The notes beneath the pieces are model-generated. The model was not told where the DNA came from, made no database searches, and saw only the letters and a list, made by a program, of their open reading frames with translations. The translations under genes were made by a program, and so were the position numbers. From assembly GCA_949358305.1 (NCBI GenBank), contig OX442324.1, positions 682,001 to 746,000 of the forward strand: a stretch of 64,000 bases of DNA, written 5' to 3'. The DNA comes from Strigamia acuminata. Taxonomy: Eukaryota > Arthropoda > Chilopoda > Geophilomorpha > Linotaeniidae. Shown in pieces: positions 3,025-39,372 of the stretch (its first letter is position 1; the number at the start of each line of letters is the position of its first letter).

Positions 3025-5260
3025 TTACGATTTGCACCAACTGCTGTCTGCTACAAAACTCACGTTATTTGCGTAATGTTGAGTTATTTCAGCAATCACG
3101 ACCTTTGCTTTCGAAAATTCATCTGTTCCTAGCATAGATATTATGTCGGCCAATCGTTTGAAGTCACTCATTATATTCGAATACTTTTCAGTGGCGCTCA
3201 AACACTTTTTGGGTGGAATAGAATTTGTAGCAGTTGCAACTGAGGCAGAATAGGTGCTAGGTAATTCTGCCATCCAATTTTCTTTTTTGTACTGGTCAGG
3301 AATTAACGTTTCGGTAAAAAGTTGACAATTAGCAGATTTTTGCACCGCAAATATATGTTTACACGGAAGTAGGCGGATTGAGTGAAAACTACAATTACAT
3401 TTAGACATCGATGCTATTCGAGAATGGGTTTGGATAACAAAACTAACAGAGTACATGTCTTGTTCAGTACCTGTAATTGAGATTTCGTTCTCCAAAGAAA
3501 ATTTAAGTTCTCTGATAATATGATCGGCGACATTTTTCGCAACAGCTGCGTATATTTGAGAAATTGCATCATCGATTGAGGTATCACCAGATGTAGGAAA
3601 AAATTGAATTTTGTTACGCGCATTGAATTTTGCGTGATCGTGCATATCGTTGGACCTCTGCAGAAACAAACGAAACGATTGATAAAAAAGGTGCAAAGAG
3701 GAATTTAGCTTCACGATAGTTTTAACTTGATGATTAAGGGACTCTAAACGATTATTAGTCGTATCACCGACATTAAAATGAGTAAACCTAAAGCATGCGA
3801 CCCACATCTCTTTAATCGGAGCCCAGTTATTATCAAAATATTCTTTCAATTCAGGGTGCATAGCTAAATTGGGATCTGATTGAAACGAGGCTTGATGCTC
3901 CTGGTAGGCATCTTCTGTCGGACTATACGCTAACTGTGAAAACAATTCTCTAGCAACTTCATCCACTAATTTAGGCAGACGTAAGTCGATAATAAACTTC
4001 TTAACTGCTTTCAACACATGAAACAAACAGATTTCGATGCAGGCATGTGGGAACGTATTTCGAACGACGCTTATTTCGGTGATATCCTTGTCAATCATAA
4101 CGGTCTGGATACGAGTGGTACTCGGATTCTCTCTTTTGAACGCATCCATAAATTTTTGGATCGTGGGTTTCGTTTCGGTCTTAACGAGGCAAACAGCTGC
4201 AACCCGACTGATATAATTACCATCCAAAACTAATATAATATACAGGGGCATCCGTGAATTATTTAAACGATACGTAGCGTCCATAAGGATGTGTTCGGGA
4301 TATTGCGATACGGCACGTTTCATCAATGAGGTCTGCCAATAGCAAAATTCTAGTCTATTCTCTTCATCTAAAGAAATTTCAACAGCCATACCGAGATCAA
4401 TTAATCTGTCTAATTCGAGCTCATCCATTAATAACTGGGCTGAATTCGAATTTTTATCTGGGCATAATTTTTGTTTCAAATTACACAAGGATTTACCGAT
4501 TTCATATTTCGAAGAATCTTTATTAACCCTCGCAGCCCCAACCTAAAAAAAATCCCTTACTCACCCAACTCGAGTCATTTTTGACCCCAAGCCGAAAAAA
4601 TTTTTCCAAAAATGAGTGAAAATGATTTTATTCTCTGAGTATTTCATGTTTCTGAAAAAATTTCAGCAATTCGGTATTTGTCAAAAAAGTGCGACAAAAA
4701 TAATTGACATTGCATTCAAAAGTAGTGAGTAAACAAAGGAATTTTGTGAAAAATTTTTTTTTCAATTTTTAAATCTATTATTTTTTTTTATTGTTTGTTA
4801 TGATGTTAAACGAAAATACATGAAATTTCAGAATGAAAATCCCAACAGTTTTTGAGAAAAAAAATAAAAACACTTTTGGAGGTCAAAATTGATCCTAGGT
4901 TGGGATGGGGAGGGTTAATAAATTCAAGCATTCGTTTCGGATTTCCATCTAAAGACAGAAGTAGTTTAAAATACTCTTTTTTTTTCTAGTGATGCTTGTC
5001 GAATCGCTCGTTTAAAGGGATATTTGTCATAATCTCGAGCCTCACATGGATGATTATGGGTGATACAACATTGGGAAACGACATACTTCATCCATTTAAC
5101 ACTAAAACGGTACTGTACGAATACAGGACAATTCGATTTCATGGTCAATGTTTGTCTTTTGCCAATCGATCGGCTTTTATAATTGCCATAGTGTACACAA
5201 CCATAAGTGATTTTGTAGTACTTGTTATGTACATCAATTTTTCTGTTTTGGGCCGATAAT
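3025..5260 (-). pseudogene. MULE transposase
   Basis: The open part (4488 to 3025, 487 codons) has the MULE DDE layout. The first Asp is in MDATYRL, the second in MIDKD, a CLFHVLKA C/H motif follows, and the Glu lies in NNRLESLNHQVK. A SWIM zinc finger, CNCSFHSIRLLPCKHIFAV, is near 3390-3350. The N-terminus continues on the far side of the MITE (4919-5260) with CCITHNHPCEA, resembling the WRKY/GCM1- or FLYWCH-like DNA-binding region of MULE transposases. The piggyBac-like MITE at 4527-4914 splits the gene, and the frame resumes plausibly after it is removed. The catalytic residues I can see are intact, but the insertion makes the copy non-functional. Confidence 0.85.
4527..4914. mobile_element. 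PiggyBac-like MITE inside the MULE transposase
   Basis: Flanked by TTAA at 4523-4526 and 4915-4918. Left end CCCTCGCAGCCCCAACCTA; right end, reverse complemented, CCCTCCCCATCCCAACCTA. The TTAA target and CCC ends are the signature of piggyBac-type elements. The 388-bp body is AT-rich and non-coding. Confidence 0.9.
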
Positions 5261-21638: not shown

Positions 21639-22127
21639 TGTTACGCGGTAGAGCCGTACCGTGTATCGGCTGGCTCTGTTTGCTCTGTTTAGGCATTTAA
21701 TGCAATGAATTCTCACCAGACGGCGCTGTGCACCTAATTAGATGCACAGACCGTTCAACTTAGTTACAGGGGGAATAGGAGCTTACTTAGTAAGCTGATT
21801 AAGCCAGAGAGCTCAGATCTCTTTTGATTCTCAAGCTTTTACCTTCGCCTACTACTGTCAGCCGGTTAACGGATAGACAGGACTAGGTTTCCTGAATTGA
21901 ATTGAAACAACAACAGCATCATCCTTATTTGATTTATTTGAATGAATGATTTGTGTTTTAGGTTTAATAAATGAACAAATGTAATAAGAGCTGATGACCG
22001 AACATTTACATTAGTAAATGTCCGACTTTGAATAATAAAGCCAACAGGCATTTTACTTATAAAACTCTGTCTTTCTTGACTAAATTCATGTCACGTAGGA
22101 CTAAATCAATCCCTATTTAGCCACGTA
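21639..22127 (+). repeat. Gyp-A 5' LTR
   Basis: Begins TGTTACGCGG. Colinear with 36430-36920 to the shared end ccacgta. The last three bases differ from the other LTR (gcc here, aca there), so its terminus looks altered. An expected tRNA primer site just downstream (gcccgtttagattg) was not recognised. Confidence 0.9.
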
Positions 22128-23041: not shown

Positions 23042-24376
23042 GTGGATAAGCCAGTAAAATTGTCACAGTTCAATACGGATAATCTTCAGGATTTGCAAAA
23101 TTGGGAATTGCCCGAACCGGATTTGAAATTTGTCGCTACTAGAAAGAAAAGGAACACTGGATCTGAATCCGACACTGAAACTCGGGAAAATAAGGAAGAG
23201 GAAGTCCGATCTCAACCTCAATCAATCCTACAGAAATTGGATTTTGCTACTCCAGCAATAAAATTAATTCCACAGAAAGGTTTAGAAGAAATAATAAAGA
23301 CATTTACACCAGTAAAAACTAAATCACAATTCCAAGTATCAACCCAATTAAATTTTCCAAAGATGACATCACAGACTCCAACGGACGTATTGACCAACTT
23401 GTTGAAAAGTTTGGTAGTGCAGAAGCGACCTGTCGTCACTTATGATACAGAACAAGGCAACATCGACCAATGGCTTGTGGCATATGAAGCTACAATAGGA
23501 ACAGATGATGAGAGAGTAAAACATTTGGCATTAGCCCTAAAGACTGATGGATTGGCATGGTTTGTGGAACAATTTAAGAAGAATCCGACATGGAAATGGA
23601 CGGATTGGAAACCACAGATCGAGAAAAAATTCCGAAGAAGCCAAGAAAATGTTTACAATACTCTCCACTTCATGAAACACAAAGAGGGTACAGCAGATGC
23701 CTTCATGAAGAAAGTCTTGGCCGAATGTGCGTTTATTCTACCAGAAATGACTGAAACTCAGAAAATAAATTACGTTTATCAAGGTTTGAAGCCTGCAATG
23801 CAGAAGTTGATGATAACAGTATTTCCATCAACGTTAGAAGAAATGGAACAGAGACTTAAATTGTATGAAAGTCACAAAATGGAAGAACCAGCGGATCTAC
23901 TGCTCACAATGTTTAAAAAAGTAGTAGATGAAAAGGTGAACCCTACGACAACAGGTACACTGTCGGGAACAGGGGGATCCCCAGTAAGCTACGCCGAGTT
24001 ATTAGCTGAAAATATTAAATTAAAACAGCAAAAGCTCGAAAGTGAGTCAGTAGAGCCACAACAAGCGGTTCCACTATTCATACAAGGCGAGTGGTATATT
24101 CCAGCATCGCAGCGCGGAAATTCCTTCAGAGGTAGAAGTAATAGGGGGCGACAGCGGTCAAATAGCAGTCCGACAACAACGCGTCCATGTGGATGTTGGC
24201 ATCGTTATGGTTGTGAACATAACACAGCTGCGCCACAGGAACAACAATTTCAAGAAAATAGAGGAAACCCAAGCAATAGAAGGTGGTTTAAAAAGAAAAG
24301 GACACAAGGGGGTGGTAAAACTAACCCTAATCCTAAGCAGAACCCACAACAAGGTCAACATGAGGAGGAAAACTAG
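23042..24376 (+). CDS. Gyp-A gag
   Basis: 444 codons. Residues about 100-290 resemble a retrotransposon gag capsid region (ALALKTDGLAWFVEQFKK, FRRSQENVYNTLHFMKHKEG, YQGLKPAMQKL). The tail is Arg/Gln/Asn-rich and nucleic-acid-binding in character (RGRSNRGRQRSN). Instead of a CCHC knuckle it has CGCWHRYGCEHN. Gag forms the virus-like particle. The frame is open back to a stop at 23030, but the codon at the natural start is GTG, and the first ATG is only about 105 codons in. The start may have mutated from ATG, or translation may begin elsewhere. It ends at TAG 24374-24376, overlapping the pol frame. Confidence 0.8.
   Translation: MDKPVKLSQFNTDNLQDLQNWELPEPDLKFVATRKKRNTGSESDTETRENKEEEVRSQPQSILQKLDFATPAIKLIPQKGLEEIIKTFTPVKTKSQFQVSTQLNFPKMTSQTPTDVLTNLLKSLVVQKRPVVTYDTEQGNIDQWLVAYEATIGTDDERVKHLALALKTDGLAWFVEQFKKNPTWKWTDWKPQIEKKFRRSQENVYNTLHFMKHKEGTADAFMKKVLAECAFILPEMTETQKINYVYQGLKPAMQKLMITVFPSTLEEMEQRLKLYESHKMEEPADLLLTMFKKVVDEKVNPTTTGTLSGTGGSPVSYAELLAENIKLKQQKLESESVEPQQAVPLFIQGEWYIPASQRGNSFRGRSNRGRQRSNSSPTTTRPCGCWHRYGCEHNTAAPQEQQFQENRGNPSNRRWFKKKRTQGGGKTNPNPKQNPQQGQHEEEN
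24365..24376 (+). other. Probable -1 frameshift site between gag and pol
   Basis: The gag codons GAG GAA AAC TAG run into pol in the -1 frame, which reads through the same bases as GGA GGA AAA CTA and stays open. The A-run before the gag stop could allow slippage, although it is not a canonical X XXY YYZ heptamer. Frame relation is seen directly; the mechanism is inferred. Confidence 0.55.
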
Positions 24377-27300
24377 TGGGTCGGCCACAAAGAAGATGTT
24401 ACCATCTAAAGAAGAAAAGAAAGAGTAGAAGAGAGAAGATAATCGTAGTCGACATGAACATTTCAGAATCTCTATTGGAAATTCCAGTAATAGTGAACAA
24501 CATGGAAGTCAAGGCAGTTATGGACACTGGAGGAAAACGCAACATTATCAGCGAAGAGCTTGCTGAAGCTTTACAGTTGAATTACCCGCCAAGCCCGAAT
24601 ATTCGATTACAAGGGGTAAGCGGAGAACTTGTGACTCCAATGGGAAAAACCAAGATGAACATTACAATTGGTGAATTAACATACAGGATCGAAGTCCTGA
24701 TTGTTAAAGGATTTCATTATGAATTACTGCTAGGTGACCCATTCATGCTGTTCGCAAAGTGTGTGTTAGACTACGACAAACAAAAAATCTTTGTGGGCCG
24801 AACTAGTGGAAAGGAAGTGTCATTTCCAATGAATAAAACTTTTGTTGATCAGAATTATGTTGCGAGGGTAATGAAGAACATCACTATCCCACCAATGCAT
24901 GAATGCATTGTTCCCATCTATTTGAATAAAACAATTTCACAGGACATGTTTGTGCAACCATTGCATAATGTTACTGATAGATTTGCTGTGATAGGTTGTA
25001 AAACTTTAACAGATTTCAAGAACGGCAAAGGCATCATTCGAGTGGCAAACCCGACTAAGAAGACAGTCTTTCTGAAGGAGAAGTCAGCCATCGCAAAAGC
25101 TTTTTATGTGGTTGATGTTGGGGTGTTTGACGAAAAACAGGTACGCTGTTTTGACTTTGACTCCTCAATAGCAAAAGATAAAATGAATAAAGACCAACAA
25201 GAGCAGATGCGACAGCTTCTTCAAAAGAATCAAGACAGATTTGCTGTTTCTGACAAGGATTTGGGAAGAGTTCAAGTGTATAAGCATAAAATTGATACTG
25301 GAGATCATGAACCAATACATTTGCAACCGTATCGTCGTTCTATAAGGGAAAAAGAAGTCGAAGCAGAGGAAACAAAGAAATTGCTTGATATGGGAGTGAT
25401 AAGAGAATCAGAAAGTCCCTGGAGGGCGCCTGTATTGCTAATAAAGAAAAGAGATGGTAAGTGGAGGTTTTGCGTCGATTGGAGACGATTGAATGCGATA
25501 ACAAAGAAAATGGTGTACCCATTGCCAAGAATAGATGACACCTTAGATCAGCTGGCAGGTGCACAGTTCTTCTCCATGATGGATCTTATTCAAGGATATT
25601 TCCAGGTTGAGATCAATGAAGAAGACAAAGAAAAGACAGCATTCACAACTTCCAGCGGGCATTATGAATTTAATGTCCTCGGCCAAGGTCTCTGCAATAG
25701 CCCAGCAGCTTTTCAAAAGCTAATGAACAAAGTTTTAGGCAACCTCCTCGGCAAAGTTTGTATCGCATACATTGACGATCTTATCATTTTCTCTAAAACA
25801 TTCGATCAGCATTTGAAAGATCTAGACAACGTTTTCGATAAGCTTAGACAATCTAACTTAAAGGTGAAGTTAAGCAAGTGCACATTTGGGACAAACACCA
25901 TTAAGTATTTGGGACATGTCGTGGACTCCGAGGGTATATCACCAGACCCAAGGAATCTAGAATCCGTAGCTAAGTTTCCAGTTCCTACTAACCTCAAACT
26001 TCTTCGAGGATTCATAGGGCTGTGTTCGTATTACAGGAAGTTCATTCCAGGTTTTGCGGACATATCAAAGCCCTTAGTCAATTTGACGAAGAAGGACGAG
26101 AAATTAGATTGGGGCCCACCTCATGACAAGGCCTTTAAAACATTAAGGACCGCCCTTATCACCGTGCCAGTGCTTGCGCACCCTAATTTTGAAGAACCCT
26201 TCATGGTATCGACAGACGCGAGCGCATATGGTCTTGGAGCAGTGTTGAAGCAAAAGATAAACAAACAAGAACATGTGATAGCTTATGTCAGTAGACTTCT
26301 CAGCCAAGCAGAACAGAATTACAATGCCACAGAAAGGGAGTGTCTGGCCATTCTGTTTGGAATTGAAAAGTACCGACCTTATTTGTATGGTAAGAAGTTC
26401 CAGATTATCACAGACCATTCGGCACTTCAATGGCTAAAATCAGTCAAAAACCCCAATGGCAGACTAGCTAGATGGAGCCTAAAGCTAGTGGACTTTAATT
26501 TCGATGTGATCCACAAGAGCGGAAAAGCGCACAAAGATGCCGACGCCTTGAGTAGAATTCCAGAAGATTTAAGCGAGGAAGAAAACGAAATAGTTCCCTC
26601 ACTTTTACTCGAACAGCTCGACCTTCCTGCTGAGCAGCGTAAGGACAAGAAGCTACTGGAATTGATCACCGCAATGAATCAAGTAGAGCAGCTTCCGAAG
26701 AAGAGAAGACGTCCTCTAAAGCAGTTCGTCCTTCTCGACAATGTGTTGTTTAGTAAGAAAAATTCTTTGAATTCCCTAGACACGGAAGTAAATCTGTTAT
26801 ACTGTATGTTCCGCAGCATCTAAAAACTGACGTACTTCAGGAAATGCATGACGGACTGACGGGTGCTCACTTGGGCCTAAACAAAACATGGAAGAGAATG
26901 AGAACAAGATTCTTCTGGCCCCGGATATATAAAGACGTAAGGAATTACGTACTTTCTTGTCCACATTGCGCGAGTTTGAAATCAATGACAACACCGCCAA
27001 AAGGTTTGATGCAGCCGTGGTCTACAATATCTAAGCCTTTCGAGAGGATTGGAATCGATACATTGGGAAGTTTTCCGACCTCCGACAAGGGCAACAAGTT
27101 TGTTTTCGTTATGACAGATTATTTGTCGCGGTCAGGGATTGCTAGAGCAGCTCCAGTAGCAACAGCATTGGAAGCAGCTAGAACTTTGCTTTACGAGTTA
27201 ATGTTGAAGGAAGGCAATCCGAGAGAAATCCTGAGCGATAGAGGCACAGAATACAGAAACAAAATGGTGGAAGAAGTATCAAATATGTTTAAAGCCCTAC

Positions 27301-27403
27301 ATAAAACCACTTCAGGGTACCATCCAAGGATTAATGGCCTTACTGACCGTTTTAATGCGACGTTTGCAAAAATGTTGCAGATTTACGTTGATAAGGACCA
27401 GAG
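24376..27403 (+). pseudogene. Gyp-A pol, 5' part (PR-RT-RNase H-IN)
   Basis: Protease with AVMDTGGKRNIIS (Asp about residue 50). RT with FCVDWRRLNAI and AYIDDLIIFS (about residue 465). RNase H with VSTDASAYGLGAVL (about 612) and DHSALQWL. A one-base frameshift lies between about 26755 and 26790, and the frame then continues into the integrase H2C2 finger (HDGLTGAHLG ... CPHCASLK) and core. First Asp in IGIDTLG, second in LSDRGTEY. The position 36 residues later, normally Glu, is Asp (NGLTDRFN). The gene stops at the Cop-D insertion; codons resume at 33318. The known role is cDNA synthesis and integration in the particle. Confidence 0.9.
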
Positions 27404-27724
27404 TGTTAAGATATAATGTATATTGATAAGCAATCACTATTTACAACACGTGTGTATATATATATCTTTGCGTATTATCATGTAGCTAAGTGTTAGTGTA
27501 TGTGTTTGGCCAATGCGAGTGATCGCAATGTTTGTTTACATACAGTGTCTGTATGCTGCCTACAGGTGGCGCTGATTGCATTGAGGTCATGTGACCAATC
27601 AATAAAGATCACTTGATGTTTTGGTTCTCACCTGTTAACATGTTGTGTGTTTCTTTCACCTGATGCATTTTTCCAATCCACTACATTTGTCACTATTAGC
27701 AGAAGTTAGCAACACTATTCAACA
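27404..27724 (+). repeat. Cop-D 5' LTR
   Basis: Starts TGTTAAGATATAATG and ends ACTATTCAACA. It includes aataaag at 27601-27607 as a likely polyadenylation signal. Identical by eye to 32997-33317. Confidence 0.95.
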
Positions 27725-27725
27725 A

Positions 27726-27736
27726 GGTTATGGGCC
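27726..27736 (+). other. Cop-D primer binding site
   Basis: ggttatgggcc, one base after the LTR. It is complementary to the anticodon-arm half of initiator Met tRNA (the tRNA contains GGGCCCAUAACC), the known Drosophila copia primer, not the usual 3' CCA end. Confidence 0.9.
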
Positions 27737-28497
27737 ACAAACAACGTGGGAAAAACAGGCAGAGTGAAGAGAAACATTTCAAGTCAACCACAGGTGAAAA
27801 AGTGGGCGTTTCTCCTCAAAATCCAAGATGGCGGCGCCCATGAGGAAAGTCAGCAACCTGTGTTCCAGCCAAGAATCTACGGTTTCACAAGCGATTATTG
27901 GTCATCAAGCGGCACAGGATCATTAATTGGGTTCGAACATTATAGAACATTTATTTAATACGTTTATTTTGGCCATTTTCGGACGATTTCTCCGAATATC
28001 GCGAGGCGCGATACGTAACGTCGACGTGGCGTTAATTTTCGCCGAGAAAACAACTCGACGACGAATACGCGAGGACGACGACGCTCGACAACCACACGGG
28101 AAGTGTGAACGAGCAGGGAATTGCCAAAAACGAGAAGATTCTCGAAGGAACTGGTTTTTTTTCGAGACGAGAGACGGAAAAACGAGGAAAAATCAACAAT
28201 ACGACGATTTTTCTCAACCACACGTGAAGTGTGATTCGAAGCTGTCGACACAATACAAGTGGTGAATCTGCAGCAGGAAGACATCACAGATGAACAATTT
28301 ATTTCGTTTATTTCGTTATTATTTTCGAATACCATTATTAGCTTAGTGTTGTTACTAGGATACACTAACATAGTATTAAGAGCGAACTAACATCGCAACA
28401 CTGCACCCAGTTGCGATTAACAGTATTTCAAAGTGTTTTTGAGCAATCTTGTGTGTGTTTTTGCTGTGTTTCTGGTGTGTTGGACACTAAATTCACA
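27737..28497 (+). other. Cop-D leader
   Basis: 760-bp untranslated leader. 28085-28125 and 28208-28240 repeat the phrase caaccacacg-gaagtgtga. A segment near 28337-28375 (ttagcttagtgttg...actagga) is shared with the start of Cop-I at 48320, which shows where Cop-I is truncated. Confidence 0.7.
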
Positions 28498-31400
28498 ATG
28501 GACACGGAAAAACTCGACCGGAAGATTACACTTTTGAATAGGACGAACTATGATACGTGGAAACAGCAAATCAAAGTGCTGTTGATGCACCACGGATGTT
28601 GGGCCTTCACCGATGGAACACAAGAAGCCCTGGCACCGGGAGCGTCTTGGCGAGATCGCTCGGACTTTCAACTACGGAAGGGGCGAGCTTTCAGCCTAAT
28701 TTACTACGCCATCGAGGAGCAATATCACGAATTGCTCAGCGGGACCGAGGACGCGAAAACAGCGTGGGATACGCTGAAAACTAACTTCGAACCGGTCTCG
28801 AGGGCGAGAATTATACGTCTGTTGGACGAATTCTTCAATTTAAAATACGATCCAGCGACGGAGACGATCGGCGTATTCGCGGCGAAGATACGCAATGCGG
28901 CGAAGCGATTAGCCGACGTCAAACACGATTTGGACAATTTGTATCAGGCATTCCAGCTCATCCGATACCTGCCACAAGAATACCAGTCAATTGTGCAGAG
29001 TATTTATCGATGGGACGATAAGGATTTCACACTGGAAAAGGTTGAAGCGGAATTGGTCGCTGAGGAGGGCAGACTCGCGCAACAACGCAGAGATTCGGGC
29101 CAAGCGCCAATTACGGACGCTTTCAACATGGGAACAAGCACAAAGAACAATGATAATTCGTCTAAATCCCAACAACAGCAAGGAAACAGCAGCCAAAACA
29201 ACCGAGGCGGACAAAGGGGCGGCAAATCGAATTATCGAGGCGGTAAAAATTCGCGGAATTTTCGAGGAAACACGACGGGATCACCAGGACGGGGGCCGTG
29301 TTTTCGGTGCAATCAACCAGGGCACTGGGCGAGGGATTGCACGGCACAATTACCGTCAAACAACAGCCAAAACACGAATACAGCGGAAGAATTGGACACA
29401 AACATGTTCGATGTCGGATTTCTCACCGAGTTGAGCGAGGAAGAGATGTTACAGTGCAGCGCAGCCAACAACTGTTGGATCTACGACACCGGGGCCACTG
29501 GACATTTTTGTAAAGATAGGAACCAGTTCTTCAACTTCAAGGAAACCACAGGGACAATAAGTCAAGCGGATAAGAAAACTTTGATTCAAATCCAAGGCGT
29601 CGGGGACGTTTGCGTGATGTGTTTGGTTGGAAGTGAGACAATTCCAATCACATTGAAGAAGGTCTATTATGCGCCGGACATGCGAAGAAATTTATTGTCG
29701 GGACCGTGCATCGACGAAGCACGATGCAAAGTCGCCGTTGGCTCGGGACTGGTCAAGATATACGATCCTCAGTGGAAGAGACAGTTGATGGAAGGCGTGA
29801 AGAAGGATCGTCTATATTACATCAAACTAAGCGACCAGAAGCCGGACTTTGAGAAGTTACGACAAAAAGCGAATAACAAGGCGAACGCCGGCGAACAAAG
29901 GAAACAAGAGCCAACTATTTCAACACAGAGCACAACAAAGAGCGCGTCTAATCCTGAGGAAGCAAGGCTTTGGCATGAGCGGCTCGGACACATCTATTTT
30001 CCTGGCGTCCAAGCAATGAGCAAAGGAGGCGCAGTGATTGGATTGCCAATTTTGGATGTGCCAATCACGCAATGCGACGTTTGCACATTAGCCAAGAAGA
30101 AGGCGATTTCTCATAAGTCGTTGCCAGGAATTAGATCGACAGAGCCACTCCAGTTGCTACACATGGATGTATGTGGAGCATTTGGCACACCAACACTCTC
30201 GGGAAACGTATACTTCTTAACTATCACGGATGACTTCTCTCGTTACTCCACAGTCTACTTAATGAAGAAGAAGGACGAAGTATTCGACATTTTCCAGAAA
30301 CACGTGAAACGAATAGAACGATTGCTTGGGAAATCGGTTCTCGCAATTCGTACGGATAACGGGATGGAGTTCTGCTCGAACAAGTTTGGAGAGTACCTCC
30401 AAGGACTAGGAATCGCCCACGAGAGGACTAACGCGTACACTCCAGTCCAAAATGGCGTTTCCGAGAGACTTAACCAGACATTAGCAAATAGAATGCGAGC
30501 GCTTGTGTACGATGCCGGCTTGGAACATCGATTCTGGGGAGAAGCCATCCTGACTTTCAACTATCTCAGGAACAGGATCGCAAAGCTGAATTCGGACAAG
30601 ACGCCGATGGAATTGTATTACGGACGGAAACCATCGCTTAGACATTTGAGAAAATTCGGGAGTTTATGCTTTGTGCAGAAAAGGATTCGAGATGGCAAAA
30701 TCGACAACAAGAGTCTACATGGCATTATGCTCGGGTATTCAAGAATCACGAGAGGATATAGAGTATGGCTGCCGGAGTTTTCCAAAGTAATTGAAACCAG
30801 CGACGTGAAGTTCGTGGAGAGCAGGCGCGGTGTTGAAGGCGTACTGGGCCTACCAGAAAAATACACGACATACATCGATAATTTGGACGACAATTTGGAC
30901 ACTGACAATGAGCGCCAATATTATTCGGATGAAGATGTCAGGCCGCCGCTACCCCCGCCAATACCAGTTAAAAAAAAGGAAGATCCACAACTGGAATTGC
31001 CCCCAGTTAAATTGAAATTTAGACTGCCAGACGACAAGTTGCGTCACAATTTACCAGAAGTGAAGTTGCAGGGCACTTTGCCACAACCCGGACAAGGACT
31101 TTTAAATCCAGTTCCAACTATTCCTGCACTAGTTTGGAAGAAAACGGAGAAAGTCAGACCGACTGGACAGAGAGATGTCGAGTACACGATCGAGGGCTAC
31201 GACAAGCCCAAGCTACGCTCGATACCCGACGTGAAGCGGTATTGTGCCGACCACAATCTCCGCGTACCAGAGCATCTGTTTGAGGACAAGAGAAAGAAGA
31301 AGCCCTCTGAATCGAATACGACGGCGGATAATCTTGACCTGGACTTTGATGATATGAATATCAACTTCGAAGCTAATCACCTGGAAGTCCACGTACCCGT

Positions 31401-32970
31401 ACGTTATGAGGAAATTGCGAATTTACCCGAGAAGGATGAATGGCGCCAAGCGATGAACGATGAGATTGACACTATGCATGAGCGCGAGGTTTGGGAACTT
31501 GTTCCACCACCGCCCAACACTAAGATAGTGGGTTGCAGATGGATTTACACGACCAAACAGAACGAAGAGGGAGAAATTGCACGTTATAAGGCGAGACTTG
31601 TCGCGCAAGGATTTTCCCAAGTCTACGGCGAATCCTATGAGGAGACATTCTCACCCGTGGTAGACTTTTCGATCGTGCGTTTCATGTTTACGCTACTCGT
31701 CTGTATGCTCAAATGGTCGTACATTCAAGCTGACGTCAAATGTGCGTATCTTTACGCAAAGTTGCATAAAACCGTCTACATGCGACAACCGAAAGGTTTC
31801 ATCATTGAAGGCAAGGAGAACTATGTCTGCAGACTCCTCCGAGCCATCTATGGCTTACACCAATCTGGAAGAGAATGGGGAATAGAACTGGAGGAGACTT
31901 TATTGAAATTAGGACTAGAACACGTCAATTGGTGCAATTGCGTTTATAAGTACGGGAATGTCGCGTATTTAATCGTCTACGTGGACGATATCGTTGTCTT
32001 CGGAAAGCAGTACGAAGATGCGATGAAAATACTCAACATGATTGGAACACAATTCGATTTAGTGATTCTCGGACAAACGAAGAAGCTGCTGGGAGTCGAA
32101 TTTCACTCGCACAAACAACAATTGGTTCTACATCAAAGATCGTACGTGAACAAAGTGTTGTTGAAATTCAAAAATTACTTGGAACATGTGAAGATTCGAT
32201 CTCAACCGATGACAAAAGCAACTGTTCTCACGAAACGAGATTGTCCGGACACAATTGATGAATTCAAAGTCATGGAAGGAATTCCATATAGAAGCTTACT
32301 TGGATGTTTAGCATTCATCGCGTCGAGAACAAGGCCCGACATGACTTATGCAGTGAACATCCTGAGCCAATTTCAATCGAATCCAGGGTGGGACCACTGG
32401 ATTGCACTTTTGGACTTACTCAGTTATCTGAGAACAACAAGAAACCACGGATTAATGTTGTTTCCAAATGATCGGATCGAGGTAATCGGATACAGCGACT
32501 CCGATTATGCAAACAACAGAGACGACCGGATCTCCGTTGGAGGAACGCTAGTGACTTTGGGCAGCACACCCATCTACTGGCGCACCTTCAAACAACGGAA
32601 CGTAACATTGTCAACAATGGAAGCCGAGTACGTAGCCCTTACAGAAACTGTCAAGGACTACATCTGGATTGTTCGTGTCCTGCACGAAATATCCCCGGAA
32701 TTAGCTGGAAGATTCTCTCATTATGTCATGTGCGACAACATATCAGCAGTGGACTTCACAAAATCTTGTGTTGAGAACAGGAAAACAAAGCACATTGACA
32801 TCCGTTACCATTTTATAAGAGAACTTGTTAAAAGAGATAATCTTCTAATCGTTCACGTAGGCACAAAGTCCAATCATGCCGACATTTTCACAAAGTCAGT
32901 TGACAAAGCTGACCTGGTGAAGTTTTGCGATCGCTTCTTAGTTGATTTAAGCATTTTGCGGGCTCAATAA
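28498..32970 (+). CDS. Cop-D Gag-Pol polyprotein, uninterrupted
   Basis: 1490 codons from ATG 28498; the frame is open further upstream but without ATG. Domains in order: UBN2/gag (KITLLNRTNYDTWKQQIKVL), zinc knuckle CFRCNQPGHWARDC (about residue 268), protease WIYDTGATGHFC (about 329), GAG-pre-integrase HHCC finger (LWHERLGH ... CDVC), integrase core, RT and RNase H. The integrase core has Asp in LLHMDVCGAF, Asp in IRTDNGMEF and Glu in QNGVSERLN, with 35 residues between the last two. RT contains KARLVAQGFSQ and YVDD (about 1161). RNase H contains YSDSDYANN, STMEAEYVAL and KTKHIDIRYHFI. All catalytic residues checked are present. Copia elements make Gag from the same frame, often by splicing or processing; no separate Gag stop is seen. 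Closest relative in the window is Cop-I. Confidence 0.95.
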   Translation: MDTEKLDRKITLLNRTNYDTWKQQIKVLLMHHGCWAFTDGTQEALAPGASWRDRSDFQLRKGRAFSLIYYAIEEQYHELLSGTEDAKTAWDTLKTNFEPVSRARIIRLLDEFFNLKYDPATETIGVFAAKIRNAAKRLADVKHDLDNLYQAFQLIRYLPQEYQSIVQSIYRWDDKDFTLEKVEAELVAEEGRLAQQRRDSGQAPITDAFNMGTSTKNNDNSSKSQQQQGNSSQNNRGGQRGGKSNYRGGKNSRNFRGNTTGSPGRGPCFRCNQPGHWARDCTAQLPSNNSQNTNTAEELDTNMFDVGFLTELSEEEMLQCSAANNCWIYDTGATGHFCKDRNQFFNFKETTGTISQADKKTLIQIQGVGDVCVMCLVGSETIPITLKKVYYAPDMRRNLLSGPCIDEARCKVAVGSGLVKIYDPQWKRQLMEGVKKDRLYYIKLSDQKPDFEKLRQKANNKANAGEQRKQEPTISTQSTTKSASNPEEARLWHERLGHIYFPGVQAMSKGGAVIGLPILDVPITQCDVCTLAKKKAISHKSLPGIRSTEPLQLLHMDVCGAFGTPTLSGNVYFLTITDDFSRYSTVYLMKKKDEVFDIFQKHVKRIERLLGKSVLAIRTDNGMEFCSNKFGEYLQGLGIAHERTNAYTPVQNGVSERLNQTLANRMRALVYDAGLEHRFWGEAILTFNYLRNRIAKLNSDKTPMELYYGRKPSLRHLRKFGSLCFVQKRIRDGKIDNKSLHGIMLGYSRITRGYRVWLPEFSKVIETSDVKFVESRRGVEGVLGLPEKYTTYIDNLDDNLDTDNERQYYSDEDVRPPLPPPIPVKKKEDPQLELPPVKLKFRLPDDKLRHNLPEVKLQGTLPQPGQGLLNPVPTIPALVWKKTEKVRPTGQRDVEYTIEGYDKPKLRSIPDVKRYCADHNLRVPEHLFEDKRKKKPSESNTTADNLDLDFDDMNINFEANHLEVHVPVRYEEIANLPEKDEWRQAMNDEIDTMHEREVWELVPPPPNTKIVGCRWIYTTKQNEEGEIARYKARLVAQGFSQVYGESYEETFSPVVDFSIVRFMFTLLVCMLKWSYIQADVKCAYLYAKLHKTVYMRQPKGFIIEGKENYVCRLLRAIYGLHQSGREWGIELEETLLKLGLEHVNWCNCVYKYGNVAYLIVYVDDIVVFGKQYEDAMKILNMIGTQFDLVILGQTKKLLGVEFHSHKQQLVLHQRSYVNKVLLKFKNYLEHVKIRSQPMTKATVLTKRDCPDTIDEFKVMEGIPYRSLLGCLAFIASRTRPDMTYAVNILSQFQSNPGWDHWIALLDLLSYLRTTRNHGLMLFPNDRIEVIGYSDSDYANNRDDRISVGGTLVTLGSTPIYWRTFKQRNVTLSTMEAEYVALTETVKDYIWIVRVLHEISPELAGRFSHYVMCDNISAVDFTKSCVENRKTKHIDIRYHFIRELVKRDNLLIVHVGTKSNHADIFTKSVDKADLVKFCDRFLVDLSILRAQ

Positions 32971-32982
32971 GGAATGAGATAA

Positions 32983-32996
32983 TACGGGGGGCCGAA
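32983..32996 (+). other. Cop-D polypurine tract
   Basis: tacggggggccgaa directly before the 3' LTR; the expected primer for plus-strand synthesis. Cop-I has the related acgaggggaccgaa. Confidence 0.8.
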
Positions 32997-33317
32997 TGTT
33001 AAGATATAATGTATATTGATAAGCAATCACTATTTACAACACGTGTGTATATATATATCTTTGCGTATTATCATGTAGCTAAGTGTTAGTGTATGTGTTT
33101 GGCCAATGCGAGTGATCGCAATGTTTGTTTACATACAGTGTCTGTATGCTGCCTACAGGTGGCGCTGATTGCATTGAGGTCATGTGACCAATCAATAAAG
33201 ATCACTTGATGTTTTGGTTCTCACCTGTTAACATGTTGTGTGTTTCTTTCACCTGATGCATTTTTCCAATCCACTACATTTGTCACTATTAGCAGAAGTT
33301 AGCAACACTATTCAACA
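32997..33317 (+). repeat. Cop-D 3' LTR
   Basis: TGTTAAG...TTCAACA, followed by the CAGAG duplication and then by resumed Gyp-A integrase codons. Confidence 0.95.
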
Positions 33318-34208
33318 CAGAGGGACTGGGATGATTTTTTGCCATTTTTGCTTTTCTCGTATAATACCGGTGTGCACGAGACGACAGGATATACACCTTA
33401 TTATCTTTTGAAAGGATATGAAGTTGATCTCAACGTGGACGTAAACCTCAACTTACCTCAAAAAGAATTCACCTTGCGAACCTCGAAATTCATCAGAGAA
33501 GCTAGGAAAATAGCAAATGAAAGGATGGAATGGCAAGGAGAAAAAAGCAGAAAAAGATTCGATCAAGGCCGAGTTCATGTGGAATTTGACCCAGGAGAAT
33601 TAGTTTACCTCAAAACACCCAATAGAAAAGTTGGGTTAAGTGAAAAACTCCTACCACAATTCTCAGGCCCATACAAAATAGTAAGAAGAACCGCGCCAAA
33701 TGATTATGAGATTAGAAGTTCAAATGGAAAGAAAACAGACATTGTGAATATTGAACGTTTAAAGCCATATAAACCCAGAGAAGAAATTCCAGCAGAGATA
33801 CTAGAAGAATTAACAGCTAAAAAAGTCACATTTGCTGATGAAAATGCAACACGAAGCGAAATATTAGAAGAAAATGAAGTAAATTCACCAATTTCGCCTA
33901 TTCCAATCGCTAAAGAACGATTCATTAGCGATGACGATCAAATTTTGTTAAAAACACTCTTTGAACCTGAAGAAAATGCAATAAAAGTGTCAAATTTCCC
34001 AATTCCGAGCGAAAAAGAGCGATTAAAAGCGCTCTATGGACCGAAAGAAATTATGGAAAGATGGCAAAACGAAGAAAAACGAAAAAACGAAGAAAATCAG
34101 CTTCGAAAACCGCCGACAGTTGATGACGCGTCGCCACCTGAAATCGAGAGTTTCCGGTCACGTCGCCTTCGCAAACAGGCTCGTCGTGACTATCATGGAT
34201 TGTGTTAA
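33318..34208 (+). pseudogene. Gyp-A pol, 3' part (integrase C-terminus)
   Basis: Continues the integrase frame directly from the Cop-D target site. It has SYNTGVHETTGYTPYYLL and the GPY/F-type module FDPGELVYLKTP ... FSGPYKIVRR. After residue about 150 it becomes acidic and Lys-rich (EEKRKNEENQLRKPP) and ends at TAA 34206-34208. The join is clean: removing Cop-D plus one CAGAG restores continuity. Confidence 0.88.
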
Positions 34209-34589
34209 GGTTTTCTGAGACAAACCAGGTTTACTGTGTGATTCAAGGAAAACCTAAAAGCATTAATAACAGCAGCTGAGTTGATTTGCGTGTGATTCCG
34301 TAAGTGAAGAGAGTGAATTTTGAACGAATTTGACGAGCTAAATAGCTTAAAAACGAAACGAATCTATCGCGAAAATTGTGAGAAATAACACCGTGAAATC
34401 GAAATTTAGGCTTAGATAATTGTGTTAAATCTTCAAAATGAAATTTTAGTGTGTGCATATATTATCAGATGACTAATTAGTTGAAAAATTGTTAAATTTA
34501 GTGTAAATTAGTGCAACATGAAATGTTAAATGAAATAATGAATGGAAATTGGAATAATTTTGTGAAAATTTTGAATTGATGAATTAATC

Positions 34590-34620
34590 TATTTTATTTT
34601 TTTTTCAAATAACATATTAG
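34590..34620 (+). other. Candidate splice acceptor before ORF3
   Basis: A pyrimidine-rich tract (tttatttttttttcaaataa) followed by catattag, with AG at 34619-34620, lies seven bases upstream of the ORF3 ATG. Candidate donors with cag/gtaat are in the leader at 22435 and 22955. This would suit a spliced subgenomic mRNA, as insect errantiviruses use for env. Inferred only. Confidence 0.4.
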
Positions 34621-34627
34621 GATTCGA

Positions 34628-36001
34628 ATGGACAAAATGGCAAGCAAGTTCGACCGAATGGATGTGCGTAGTGACAGTGACAGTGAAACAGATTCGATTT
34701 GCTCAATGCAAGTGGGCGATCTTTTGGAACGTCAACTAAAGAAAGGCGATGACTTGGAAAGTCATTCAGCTAATAAGCCCAGCACAAGTAAAACCTTGGA
34801 TGAATTGGTCAACTGCCCACGTCCGTTTACAGAAGGAAAACGGAAGGTGGAGGAAGATAAAAAGAAATATGAGGGACCATTAACGAAGGGTGAAGAAGGC
34901 TTATTGCGTCGTCGTTGTAAGAATCGACAATTGAAACGAGATAAGAAAGCACAAAAGAAGAAAGTGTTTGACGAGCAATCGAAAAAGATCCGGGAAGAAG
35001 AAATGCGTCACACCGTCGACCGTAACAAGCGCCGATTAGACGATTTGCGAATGGAGCACCGGAATATGGTCAAAGCCATTAGAGCCAGGAAATTAAAAGT
35101 AATCATGGGAATTGCTGACTACCAGTTGTGGAGAGAAGGGGCGAATGCTTTGTTGATCCAGGAGGCAAAAATAAGAAAAAACATTTTGAAAGCCATCGCC
35201 TTAGCGAGAAGAGAATCTTTCCAGGACCCTAGTGTTGTGTTTCCCGCTCCTATTCGGGTATACCGAGTGGAGCTGGACATGGCGCGACAGGTCCAGGCAT
35301 TGGGTCTCGCTCTGGATTATGGTAACGCGCCAAGACACGATTTGGCATTCGAACCCACAGGATGTCCACCTATTTATGTCATGAACTACCAAATGGCGGC
35401 ATTAGGCGACTTGACGCTGGGACGACAGAGCTGGACATACGACAGCGTCGTTGACCACTATCTTCAGCTGTTAGAAGAGCGATATCCCATAATGGCACCA
35501 TTCCAGTCAGATTGGGTCTTCAAAATGGTGGACCCAGCTAAACGAAAAGAAGCGATCTATTGGCTAATGAAGAGACTTCCAAGTGCTCAAAAGAAGATTT
35601 GGGTATTCCCAGTTCCTATCGAAGAGCATTGGCAGCTTTTCATGGTTGATTGGCGGAAAGTGCCAACCCAATACGTGCTATATGATCCAAGCGGACCAAT
35701 AGAACTCACATATCCGAAATGGGAATCACTAAGATATTCATTGGTAGGAGCAGGAGTAAAGTTCCCAAACAAATTCATACGTTGGGACCCGCCACGTATG
35801 CACCAATTGGATAACGACAGCTGCGGCCCAACTGTACTCTACTTCATCAGGAGTTAAGTTTTGGATCGCGACCTGATGCAGTTTGGGGAGCCGTGTGAGT
35901 TACGCTTACGATTTGTATACGAGATTGCGAATCGTGAAATTCTGCCATTCGAGTTGATTAAAGAAGAAGATAAGAAGGATCAAGCGGAAGGAGGAGAGTG
36001 A
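34628..36001 (+). pseudogene. Gyp-A ORF3: Ulp1/C48-like cysteine protease
   Basis: Third ORF between pol and the 3' LTR, where env lies in insect errantiviruses. Residues 1-200 are charged and likely coiled (RNKRRLDDLRMEHRNMVKAI). The C-terminal part has the C48 signature: His334 in EEHWQLFMVDW, Asp353 in YVLYDPSG, Gln393 and Cys399 in HQLDNDSCGPTV. The six-residue Gln-Cys spacing and the 19-residue His-Asp spacing fit yeast Ulp1 (His514, Asp531, Gln574, Cys580). No signal peptide or membrane segment is visible, so it is not an envelope protein. TAA at 35855-35857 interrupts the frame, which stays open for 47 more codons to TGA 35999-36001. Function in the element is unknown; it might cleave Gag, Pol or a host SUMO/ubiquitin-like conjugate. 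Confidence 0.8.
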
Positions 36002-36409: not shown

Positions 36410-36429
36410 AAAATTAAAGGGGGGGGGGC
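36410..36429 (+). other. Gyp-A polypurine tract
   Basis: aaattaaagggggggggg, then c, immediately before TGTTACG of the 3' LTR. Confidence 0.85.
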
Positions 36430-36923
36430 TGTTACGCGGTAGAGCCGTACCGTGTATCGGCTGGCTCTGTTCGCTCTGTTTAGGCATTTAATGCAATGAA
36501 TTCTCACCAGACGGCGCTGTGCACCTAATTAGATGCACAGACCGTTCAACTTAGTTACAGGGGGAATAGGAGCTTACTTAGTAAGCTGATTAAGCCAGAG
36601 AGCTCAGATCTCTTTTGATTCTCAAGCTTTTACCTTCGCCTACTACTGTCAGCCGGTTAACGGATAGACAGGACTAGGTTTCCTGAATTGAATTGAAACA
36701 AGAACAGCATCATCCTTATTTGATTTATTTGAATGAATGATTTGTGTTTTAGGTTTAATAAATGAACAAATGTAATAAGAGCTGATGACCGAACATTTAC
36801 ATTAGTAAATGTCCGACTTTGAATAATAAAGCCAACAGGCATTTAACATATAAAACTCTGTGTCTTTCTTGACTAAATTCATGTCACGTAGGACTAAATC
36901 AATCCCCATTTAGCCACGTAACA
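36430..36923 (+). repeat. Gyp-A 3' LTR
   Basis: Starts TGTTACG and ends CGTAACA, a perfect 7-bp inverted pair. Differences from the 5' LTR include ttcgctctg versus tttgctctg, and tgtgtctttc versus tgtctttc. Confidence 0.9.
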
Positions 36924-37049
36924 ATATAAAGTATATAAAGCACGGAAACAGAAATACCTGATAATGTCACGTATTTATCATGTATATAATATAAAGGGAT
37001 CACAATCCATTCTAATTAGAAACAACCAAATATTCAAATAAATACTTGA

Positions 37050-39372
37050 AGAACATTGCTGTTTTCCAACGGTAATTATATCGATGGCATCTGCATCCAC
37101 AATCGATGCATCTGGAACAATTAATTCAAGAATGTCCTCAGCAATGTTCACAGCATCGTTCTCAGCATTTGTAGCATCAGGGGTTATAGCATCAGAATTT
37201 GTTGGCGCCCAAATATCGCCATCGCTCCGAATCGTTTCGGTAAGAGTAAAGAAAGGATTAGTAAATTCGTCAGGGATGACATTTGATTTTCCGCTCGTGT
37301 TTTCATCAAACACAACGTCATGTGATATTGTTATCTTTCTAGATGTGGTGTCAATCAGCCGGTAACCTTTTGTTGCTTCACAATACCCCAAAAAAGTCAA
37401 TTTTTCACTTTTAGCACTACATTTCCGGCGCTTTTCCTTTGGTATGTGAGAATGTGCAATGCACCCAAAAATCCGTAATCTGCTAATGTCTGGTATTACA
37501 CCACTCCATGCCTTTTCCGGAGGTTTATCTGGAACTGCTGCAGTTGGCGAACGATTCTTCAAATATGTTGCTGTCATGATGGCTTCACCCCAATTCTGGT
37601 TGCCGAGCGACGCGTCCTGCAACATCGATCTCGCCTTCTCCACCAGATTTTGGTTTGTCCTTTCCGCCACCACGTTTTGTTGGGACGTATATGGCACCGT
37701 CAGTTCGTGGACAATTCCATGTTGGTACATGTAGTCCTTAAATTCCGTGGCGACATACTCTGTGCCATTATCTGATTGAAGTCGTTTAATCGTTTGTCTT
37801 GTCTGCTTTTCAACGAGCGCTCTGAATTCCTTGAATCTGTGAAATACTTCATTTTTATGTTTTAGCAAATACACAAAAGTTTTTCTTGAATGGTCGTCAA
37901 TGAACGTTAGAAAATATCTAGCTCCGACCATTGTTGCATCCGCCATTGGACCACACACTTCACTGTGCACAAGTTCAAGTTTTTCGTTTGAACGTGGTGT
38001 TTTACTACTAGGAAAAGGCACACGGTGTTGTTTCCCTTTTAAACACGGGTCACACACTTTAATTGAGTCCACTTTCTTGCCAGAAATGTCAAGACCGTTT
38101 ACCATACCCCGCAGGATTTTCATTCCGCTGTCGCTCAAATGTCCAAGTCGTTTGTGCCAAATTTCATTGCTCACTCGAAGGGGTTGCACATTTCAATGCT
38201 TGTCCGCCCTTTTTGATGGTCACAACATCCAATCGATACAGTTCATCTTGATGACTCGACACGCCTATTATTGTAACACTATACTTGCGTATTTCGCACC
38301 GTCCATCCCGAAATCGTATTTCCGCTCCATTCTTTTCCATTTGCCGTACAGACAACAAATTCGCATCCAGACCTAGTACAAAATAAACATCCGGAAATGC
38401 CACTTTTTCGGACTTTCCATTAATCCGCACAACCAGTTCTACAGTTCCAGTGTGCTCTGTGTGAAGCACCCCACCGTTTGCAGTGTTCACCACTATTTTT
38501 GATGCATTTCTTAAATTACCAAATTGTTTGCGTTGCGAGGACATATGTCACGATGCCCCGGAATCCACAATCCAATCCGTATCTGAAGACGTCGACATCA
38601 GCGCTGTAACCAAGACCGTGGCAACGTACGTCTTGTTCGTCGAATTACTCTTATCTTCTTCCTTTTTCGAGCTCTTGGGCAACTTTACCCGACAATCCAC
38701 TCGTTTGTGGCCAAATTTGTGGCACCTATGGCATTTTATTCGCGATAAATCGTTATCCTCATTACGTTGAACACGTCCTGAATTTCCCGCGCTCGAGCTG
38801 AATGCGGCGCTAGTGACTTCCTTCTCTCGGCGTTGCGACTCTTGTAGAAGGCACACTTTAACATATTCCGCCGTGGTGTCGGATCCACAATTTTCCAGCG
38901 CCATAATCATTGGCTTGAACTCCTCAGGTAACATCGCGAGTAACATCGCTGCCATCATTTTATTATCTACCTTGTAGTTGATGTCAGTCAACTGCTGGCC
39001 AATGGTCACTTTCCGACCAATATACTCGGCCATATCCTTACAGTCGTTGTACTTGATGTTGATTAAGTCTGTTAAAAGAGAAACTTGGCTTCCCAAACTT
39101 TTATTCTGATAAAGTTTTGTCAAATTCTCCCACGTTTCTTTTGCAGTCTCAAAACCACACACTTCCTGGTACACGTGCTCTTGGACTCCAAGTGCAATGG
39201 TGGCAAGTGCGAGTCAACTCTTTGTGGCGTCAACCTTTTCTCCACCAACATAATCCCACAAACCTTCGCGGACGAGCTGCATTTCCATCGCGAATTTCCA
39301 ATTGTTAAAGTTGGAAAATTCCTGATGAGTCGTGTGGCCACTTCCCATTGCTTTGGGCACTTCTTCAGCCAT
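37050..39372 (-). pseudogene. Cop-E gag-protease-integrase
   Basis: Starts at ATG 39372-39370 (MAEEVPKAMGSGHTTHQEF). Gag follows, with zinc knuckle CHRCHKFGHKRVDC (about 38735), protease WIVDSGAS, GAG-pre-integrase IWHKRLGHL, and integrase with VHSEVCGPM, QSDNGTEYV and VVAERTNQNL. Damage includes an in-frame TGA in gag near 39215, another TGA at 38545-38547 right after DSGAS (probably a former CGA) and a frameshift near 38185. The first integrase Asp reads Glu, as in Cop-H. After the integrase comes an Asp/Ile/Val-rich linker (VPDASIVDADAI), then unrelated sequence. Confidence 0.88.

Follow-up and report, generated by a model that had tools for sequence, protein, structure and literature searches.

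A Ty3/gypsy lineage of Strigamia acuminata carries a C48 (Ulp1/SENP-like) protease gene in the position of the envelope gene

SUMO is processed or removed by C48 enzymes. Ulp1 domains have been published for several kinds of mobile elements, namely Ginger1, MULE, Crypton and NeSL/Utopia (accessible parts of PMC2836005, PMC4640811, PMC3212892 and PMC13317346). Insect endogenous retroviruses and errantiviruses such as gypsy, ZAM and idefix (Metaviridae) are arranged as LTR, gag, pol and a third ORF (ORF3), and this order is common to the element described here, Gyp-A. According to the accessible text of PMC12992720, splicing yields the subgenomic RNA from which env of the insect retroviruses is expressed, and lineages devoid of env-F arose repeatedly. 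No LTR element with a gene for a Ulp1, C48 or SUMO protease was found in full-text searches of the open-access literature.

The window, which is the whole stretch of DNA analysed, covers 64 kb of contig C12, and the genome searched comprised 237.5 Mb. A TTAGG array with which contig C1 starts and 54 chitin_bind_4 matches mark the genome as that of an arthropod, so that an initial idea of a plant or oomycete was rejected; 7tm_6 gave a single weak match. The features of the gypsy element are listed in Table 1. The order of protease, reverse transcriptase (RT), RNase H and integrase, together with the LTRs and the polypurine tract, is that of Ty3/gypsy elements (Metaviridae), and the primer-binding site (PBS) and target duplication were recognised through relatives. 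The gag ORF matched Ty3_capsid weakly (E 9e-4, 19.1 bits, under the cut-off of 29.1), and the best relative of pol in the protein comparison showed 45% identity over 89%. In the window copy, the putative PBS expected 3' of the 5' LTR was absent upon comparison with the relatives, and no obvious target duplication was detected at the LTR ends. Unlike the two-frame pol of this copy, the RT of many relatives lies within a 1327-aa frame. The window copy is dead, with its PBS lost, pol in two frames, a Copia element in the integrase and a stop codon in ORF3.

Table 1. Coordinates of the gypsy element and its parts within the window.
Feature	Position	Strand	Remarks
5' LTR of gypsy element	21639..22127	+	starts TGTTACGCGG; compared with 3' LTR and relatives
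gag ORF	23042..24376	+	444 aa, mechanical GTG start
pol part 1: aspartic protease, reverse transcriptase, RNase H	24364..26823	+	PF13975, PF00078, PF17917, PF17919
Integrase, first part	26757..27416	+	PF17921; PF00665 slightly below cut-off; separate frame in window copy
Nested Copia	27401..33317	+	splits gypsy integrase; foreign to gypsy element
Integrase, C-terminal part	33303..34208	+	PF22938, PF24626
Intron ahead of ORF3	34300..34620	+	donor GTAAGT, acceptor TTAG 7 nt 5' of ATG; absent from L015
ORF3	34628..35857	+	acidic N-terminus, basic region, C48 (Ulp1/SENP-like) domain; stop at 35855
Leftover ORF3-homologous region 3' of premature stop	35858..36001	+	homology to other copies
Polypurine tract	36416..36428	+	AAA and ten G, immediately 5' of 3' LTR
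3' LTR of gypsy element	36430..36923	+	terminal CGTAACA

The nested Copia element spans 5.9 kb, and its LTRs (27401-27724 and 32994-33317) are 99.7% identical over 324 bp; it is young and has a gag-pol frame of 1533 aa from stop to stop. The surroundings of the gypsy copy are rich in mobile elements, including a MULE frame of the ZSWIM/SWIM type (3025-4488, minus strand) and a Copia integrase remnant (36978-38189, minus strand).

An earlier note on this DNA had placed a third ORF inside the LTRs and after pol, and this was confirmed, the ORF starting with its own ATG 419 nt 3' of pol between LTRs that are 98.6% identical across 491 aligned bp. The note had the ORF run from 34628 to 36001; its start was right, but in this copy the frame closes before 36001. 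The ORF3 of the window is 409 aa long because of an in-frame TAA at 35855-35857, which lies 3' of the codon for the catalytic Cys, and a 457-aa version is present in other genomic copies. The motifs EEHW, YDPSG and QLDNDSCG, from which the note had read a C48-like protein, were seen in the window ORF in C48 order with the six-residue spacing between Gln and Cys.

The C48 reading was borne out by profile comparison. An alignment of 17 ORF3 proteins (profile A2), taken from two of the 20 fetched Gyp-A copies, one of ten loci of a second set and all 14 loci of a third set, was compared with the PDB by hmmsearch. As a result, 18 sequences were retrieved at E <= 1, of which 17 were C48 proteins (SENP1/2/3/5, Ulp1 and XopD; SENP8 was not among these 17). 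The best match was SENP1 (E=7.8e-12), and the 18th was an unrelated substrate-binding protein (E 0.71). When one intact copy served as the query in phmmer, the first 14 of 21 hits were SENP1/2/3/5 and Ulp1 chains, with E from 8.7e-4 to 0.024. The Pfam scan called no C48 domain in the window ORF3, nor in either of two further Gyp-A copies. Among ten relatives, PF02902 exceeded the cut-off in one (L041; 22.5 vs 20.7 bits), stayed below it with E up to 1 in five and was unlisted in four, and the cut-off was also reached by two ORF3 places among 46 matches of a six-frame search.

The active-site Asp, Gln and Cys, and the Gly next to the Cys, were conserved in 17/17 rows of A2, and the catalytic His in 14/17. 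It was replaced by Ser in L061 and L062 and by Arg in L063, in frames that are still open. Two Trp residues, aligned with the Trp pair of SENP1, which we take to clamp the Gly-Gly tail of SUMO, were kept in all 17 rows. The most basic 20-residue stretch of the N-terminal half contained 9 to 13 Lys or Arg residues in every row, and the basic region formed a long helix in a predicted model of low confidence. The single-sequence AlphaFold2 model of the window ORF3 alone reached a mean pLDDT of only 45, so that the fold assignment rests on the sequence profiles. By homology and by its conserved active site, ORF3 is a C48 (Ulp1/SENP) protease.

The absence of an envelope gene, also proposed in the earlier note, agreed with a hydropathy scan of the same 17 proteins. 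The peak 19-residue value was at most 1.43, and no N-terminus was strongly hydrophobic; ORF3 is therefore unlike an envelope protein, since the scan revealed no signal-peptide-like or membrane segment. Between pol and the 3' LTR of the window copy no env-F was found, and the sole ORF of at least 120 aa in this interval was the C48 ORF.

The region in front of ORF3 was analysed for splicing. By eye, a T-rich stretch followed by AG was recognised upstream of ORF3 in most families. An acceptor score compared with shuffled sequences in 10 families gave values of 0.067 or less in four, 0.16 and 0.20 in two and 0.49 or more in four, with a combined p of 0.005; the splice-site frequencies of this score were set from general knowledge, and it carries less weight than the intron loss described below. 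To find retrocopies of spliced RNA, the genome was scanned for perfect matches to the Gyp-A ORF3 start in which the base 14 nt upstream of the start motif departed from the usual one. A single place was detected, copy L015 on contig C135. In an alignment with the window and the other 19 copies fetched, L015 lacked exactly the stretch from GTAAGT to TTAG that is listed as the intron in Table 1. The donor was present in 20/20 of these other rows, and the acceptor AG in 18/20. The precise loss of a GT-AG stretch from L015 indicates that RNA is spliced at the ORF3 acceptor in Gyp-A. Production of the third ORF from spliced RNA, as in errantiviruses, was thus found for the intron separating pol from ORF3. 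In most other families the Gyp-A position yielded no GTAAGT donor, and the intron is therefore demonstrated for Gyp-A only.

Copies of ORF3 are numerous in the genome. In a DNA search with ORF3, the best 40 of 58 candidate matches showed 88-100% identity. Among the 20 close copies fetched, the search for which had been suggested in the earlier note, the ORF3 frame was open to its end in 16 and not open in four. When the C-terminal 257 aa of ORF3 were used as a protein query, at least 149 matches were obtained with identities of 31 to 100%, many of them in intact frames of 440-496 aa, and a query from a second family gave at least 150 matches, mostly in the same places. One copy from each of five families was examined for LTRs in the stretches where these were expected. 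The copies L010, L052 and L055 had LTR pairs of 503, 494 and 583 bp, respectively, each pair being 100% identical, with target duplications ATAT, ATAT and GTAT and with a common TGGTGGAGAT behind the LTR, a putative PBS; no LTR pair was found within the stretches fetched for L051 and L060. The identical LTR pairs in three families suggest that parts of the lineage moved recently.

The phylogeny called for in the earlier note was constructed with 12 ORF3 domains and seven other C48 domains of this genome, using a midpoint root and with long branches. The 12 ORF3 domains formed their own group (100/99) apart from the seven others, MULE-borne domains included, which we read as one gain in the ancestor of the ORF3 families. 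The capture by a single element that the earlier note had envisaged was not upheld; ORF3 C48 is instead a long-standing feature shared by a lineage of families, with the match region down to 31% identical, and it was lost by others.

Several further C48 places were observed. At L058 (C4:2135277-2138614), just before position 1294, an LTR end and PBS are joined straight to the interior of ORF3, so that by eye this locus is a deletion derivative retaining the protease part. Other C48 domains (L026-L031, L035, L045, L047) are located within MULE-like frames or next to PHD fingers, and six places of the same score lie in 1075-aa frames. At L046 (1526-3340, plus strand; C1:50726000-50732000), a 605-aa frame combines an mRNA-capping-enzyme domain (PF01331, E 1e-47) with a C48 domain that groups with one from a MULE, and an ORF3 relic is located nearby. 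L033 and L034 (C1:22252003 and C1:33635212) have the same score and each lie in an 1828-aa open frame; in the 858 aa of L033 scanned, C48 was the sole Pfam domain at E <= 0.01.

To relate ORF3 to its carriers, the best 108 of 3952 candidate RT copies were scored for an ORF3 downstream, based on the union of two protein searches (159 rows, the extra rows chosen by eye). An ORF3 match lay downstream of 52/108 RT copies and none was listed for 56/108; this latter count may be too high, because absence was read in the sequence at two loci (L076 and L077) and elsewhere follows from lists of matches that are lower bounds. The distance from RT to ORF3 was about 2.1-3.0 kb in 50 of the 52 copies, and 8.7 and 9.6 kb in the other two, namely the window copy with its Copia insertion and one more. 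In terms of RT identity, ORF3 was found downstream in 40/53 copies at 95% or more, in 11/53 at 87-89% and in 1/2 in between. ORF3 is hence not an insertion private to the window copy, as the 40 close copies demonstrate, although 13/53 lacked it. In L077, which is of the Gyp-A type, the spacer preceding ORF3 (98% over 65 bp) joins the Gyp-A 3' UTR and LTR within a few bases, so ORF3 was deleted there. L076 belongs to another family (RT 88%) and starts inside sequence aligning to the 3' UTR and LTR of L052 (72% over 816 columns); no ORF3 match was found in it, and the distance from RT is too short to leave room for ORF3. Directly after the 3' LTR of L076 (C9:1622600-1624500), PBS-like and leader-like sequence was seen, probably from tandem elements sharing an LTR. 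The 56 RT copies with no listed ORF3 imply that ORF3 is dispensable in cis, and such copies could be supplied in trans or have no need of it. In this respect the lineage resembles the insect endogenous retroviruses, among which env-F was repeatedly lost, as reported in the accessible part of PMC12992720.

Selection on ORF3 was estimated from 15 pairs, of which eight were saturated in dS and seven measurable. The dN/dS values of the latter were 0.070, 0.066, 0.087, 0.100, 0.100, 0.056 and 0.884, which indicates purifying selection in six of the seven. The value of 0.884 belongs to the pair L061/L062, both of which are without the catalytic His; this is what would be expected if catalysis were the constrained property, and as a single pair it counts for little. 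Between Gyp-A and the L052-type families, RT is 87% identical and the last 257 aa of ORF3 44%, so ORF3 evolves much faster than RT, a pattern to be expected of a host-facing gene.

Taken together, the explanation that we prefer, with a probability of roughly 0.5, is that this Ty3/gypsy lineage holds in the env slot a gene expressed from spliced RNA whose product would be a nuclear Ulp1/SENP-type protease removing SUMO from host proteins that silence LTR elements. The basic N-terminal half would carry the protein to the nucleus, a location suggested by its composition. There, as an active enzyme with SUMO (or a comparable Gly-Gly-terminated tag) as its substrate, the C48 domain would strip this tag from the proteins that silence LTR elements at chromatin, and the loss of silencing would raise transcription of the element, giving ORF3 an anti-silencing role. 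In yeast, mutation of ubc9 or of siz1 siz2 raises Ty1 RNA, and ulp1 mutants also contain more Ty1 RNA, which the authors traced to less SUMOylation (accessible part of PMC8585004). By these data the host Ulp1 restrains Ty1, and therefore the effect of such a protease is not simply an increase in LTR transcription. In Arabidopsis, Vandal MULEs carrying Ulp1 induce hypomethylation of their own kind, and the role of Ulp1 is called unknown in the accessible part of PMC13317346. In view of these Ty1 and Vandal findings, and of the aspartic protease that the element already has, we rank a nuclear deSUMOylase that weakens silencing above an integration or repair function, a deubiquitinase and self-processing. 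In its favour are also the profile match to SENP1, the conserved active site and Trp pair, the dN/dS contrast, the spliced copy L015, the basic stretch in every row and the fast change of ORF3. Counting against it are the 56/108 RT copies with no ORF3 listed and the loss of His in 3/17 open frames. A more specific version, that the spliced nuclear deSUMOylase strips SUMO-dependent silencing of the piRNA/SetDB1 type from the element's own chromatin and that sisters without ORF3 are served in trans, is offered as a tentative idea that may well fail. If true, an LTR retroelement would for the first time have been found to carry a SUMO protease directed against silencing.

Alternatively, the protease might act in nuclear entry, integration or post-integration repair by altering the SUMO or ubiquitin modification of repair or pore proteins, which we regard as unlikely. 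The basic N-terminus would suit such a function, and in the accessible part of PMC2836005 the Ginger1 authors propose post-transposition repair for the Ulp1 and OTU domains beside a gypsy-like integrase. However, ORF3 is a separate gene behind pol with its own splice acceptor and is not fused to the integrase, and relatives without ORF3 nevertheless multiplied.

It is less probable still that ORF3 is a deubiquitinase or deneddylase that shields element proteins from the proteasome. C48-like enzymes include NEDD8 and ubiquitin specificities, and the similarity of ORF3 to SENPs is remote, so that the substrate is not readable from the sequence; against this, the 17 C48 matches comprised SENP1/2/3/5, Ulp1 and XopD, and SENP8 was absent. 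Slightly lower again we place a role in maturation, with ORF3 as a second protease that cleaves Gag, Pol or an accessory protein of the element itself in the manner of the adenain-type C5 proteases. C48 enzymes share a common fold with adenain and cleave behind Gly-Gly, which would be compatible with this role, but pol already encodes an aspartic protease, the Trp pair for clamping the SUMO tail is kept in all 17 rows, and the RT copies without a listed ORF3 include several with intact 1310-aa pol frames. That ORF3 is a functionless passenger of captured host DNA is hardly credible, for although many relatives lack it and 3/17 rows lost the His, six of the seven measurable pairs have dN/dS values of 0.056-0.10 and frames are intact in families as little as 31-45% identical.

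For the preferred reading, a nuclear deSUMOylase, the sister families with and without ORF3 form a natural plus/minus contrast, and the idea that element-borne Ulp1 works against SUMO-dependent silencing is therefore directly testable.

Neither one copy nor A2 retrieved a match at E <= 0.01 from 5.8 billion proteins among the about 8000 best candidates of each, and the A2 scan of viral contigs gave no match; these negative results carry little weight, because close arthropods are possibly unrepresented in such collections. In ORF3, as in host SENP/Ulp1 proteases, His, Asp, Gln and Cys occupy the active site, the Trp pair is present and Gln precedes Cys by six residues; the similarity in sequence is remote, and ORF3 is LTR-borne and multicopy. 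With errantiviruses, Gyp-A shares a third gene linked to splicing and missing in some lineages: env is expressed from a spliced RNA, and ORF3 has a splice acceptor at its ATG. However, the errantiviral third ORF is Env-F, whereas that of Gyp-A is a C48 protease with no signal-peptide-like or membrane segment, and the splice demonstrated for Gyp-A takes out a short intron located after pol and ahead of ORF3, and not gag-pol.

Like Gyp-A, several Ginger1 families combine a gypsy-type integrase with a Ulp1 domain, according to the accessible part of PMC2836005. Ginger1 elements are described there as cut-and-paste elements that have terminal inverted repeats and in which Ulp1 follows the transposase as a fusion, whereas Gyp-A has LTRs, RT and a separate ORF; neither terminal inverted repeats, nor a lack of RT, nor a fusion of Ulp1 to integrase was found in the window element. 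The Kaonashi/Vandal-KIU MULEs are also mobile, carry Ulp1 and are linked to hypomethylation of their own kind; in contrast to the LTR element Gyp-A, they are plant DNA transposons with Ulp1 inside a VANC-type gene (accessible part of PMC13317346). The MULE-borne C48 domains of this genome fell outside the ORF3 group, so that ORF3 does not nest among them. The NeSL/Utopia non-LTR retrotransposons and the oomycete CryptonF/S elements are likewise mobile with Ulp1/C48. As far as the accessible parts of PMC4640811 and PMC3212892 describe them, Ulp1 is the N-terminal domain of a non-LTR polyprotein in NeSL and in Utopia-1_TSP, of nematodes, unlike ORF3, and Cryptons are tyrosine-recombinase elements, unlike Gyp-A. 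At least four other kinds of mobile elements thus carry Ulp1 with an unsettled role, and ORF3 adds a clean case from an LTR element, as a separate, spliced and strongly constrained gene that occupies the env slot of the insect elements and is present in some families and absent from close sisters.
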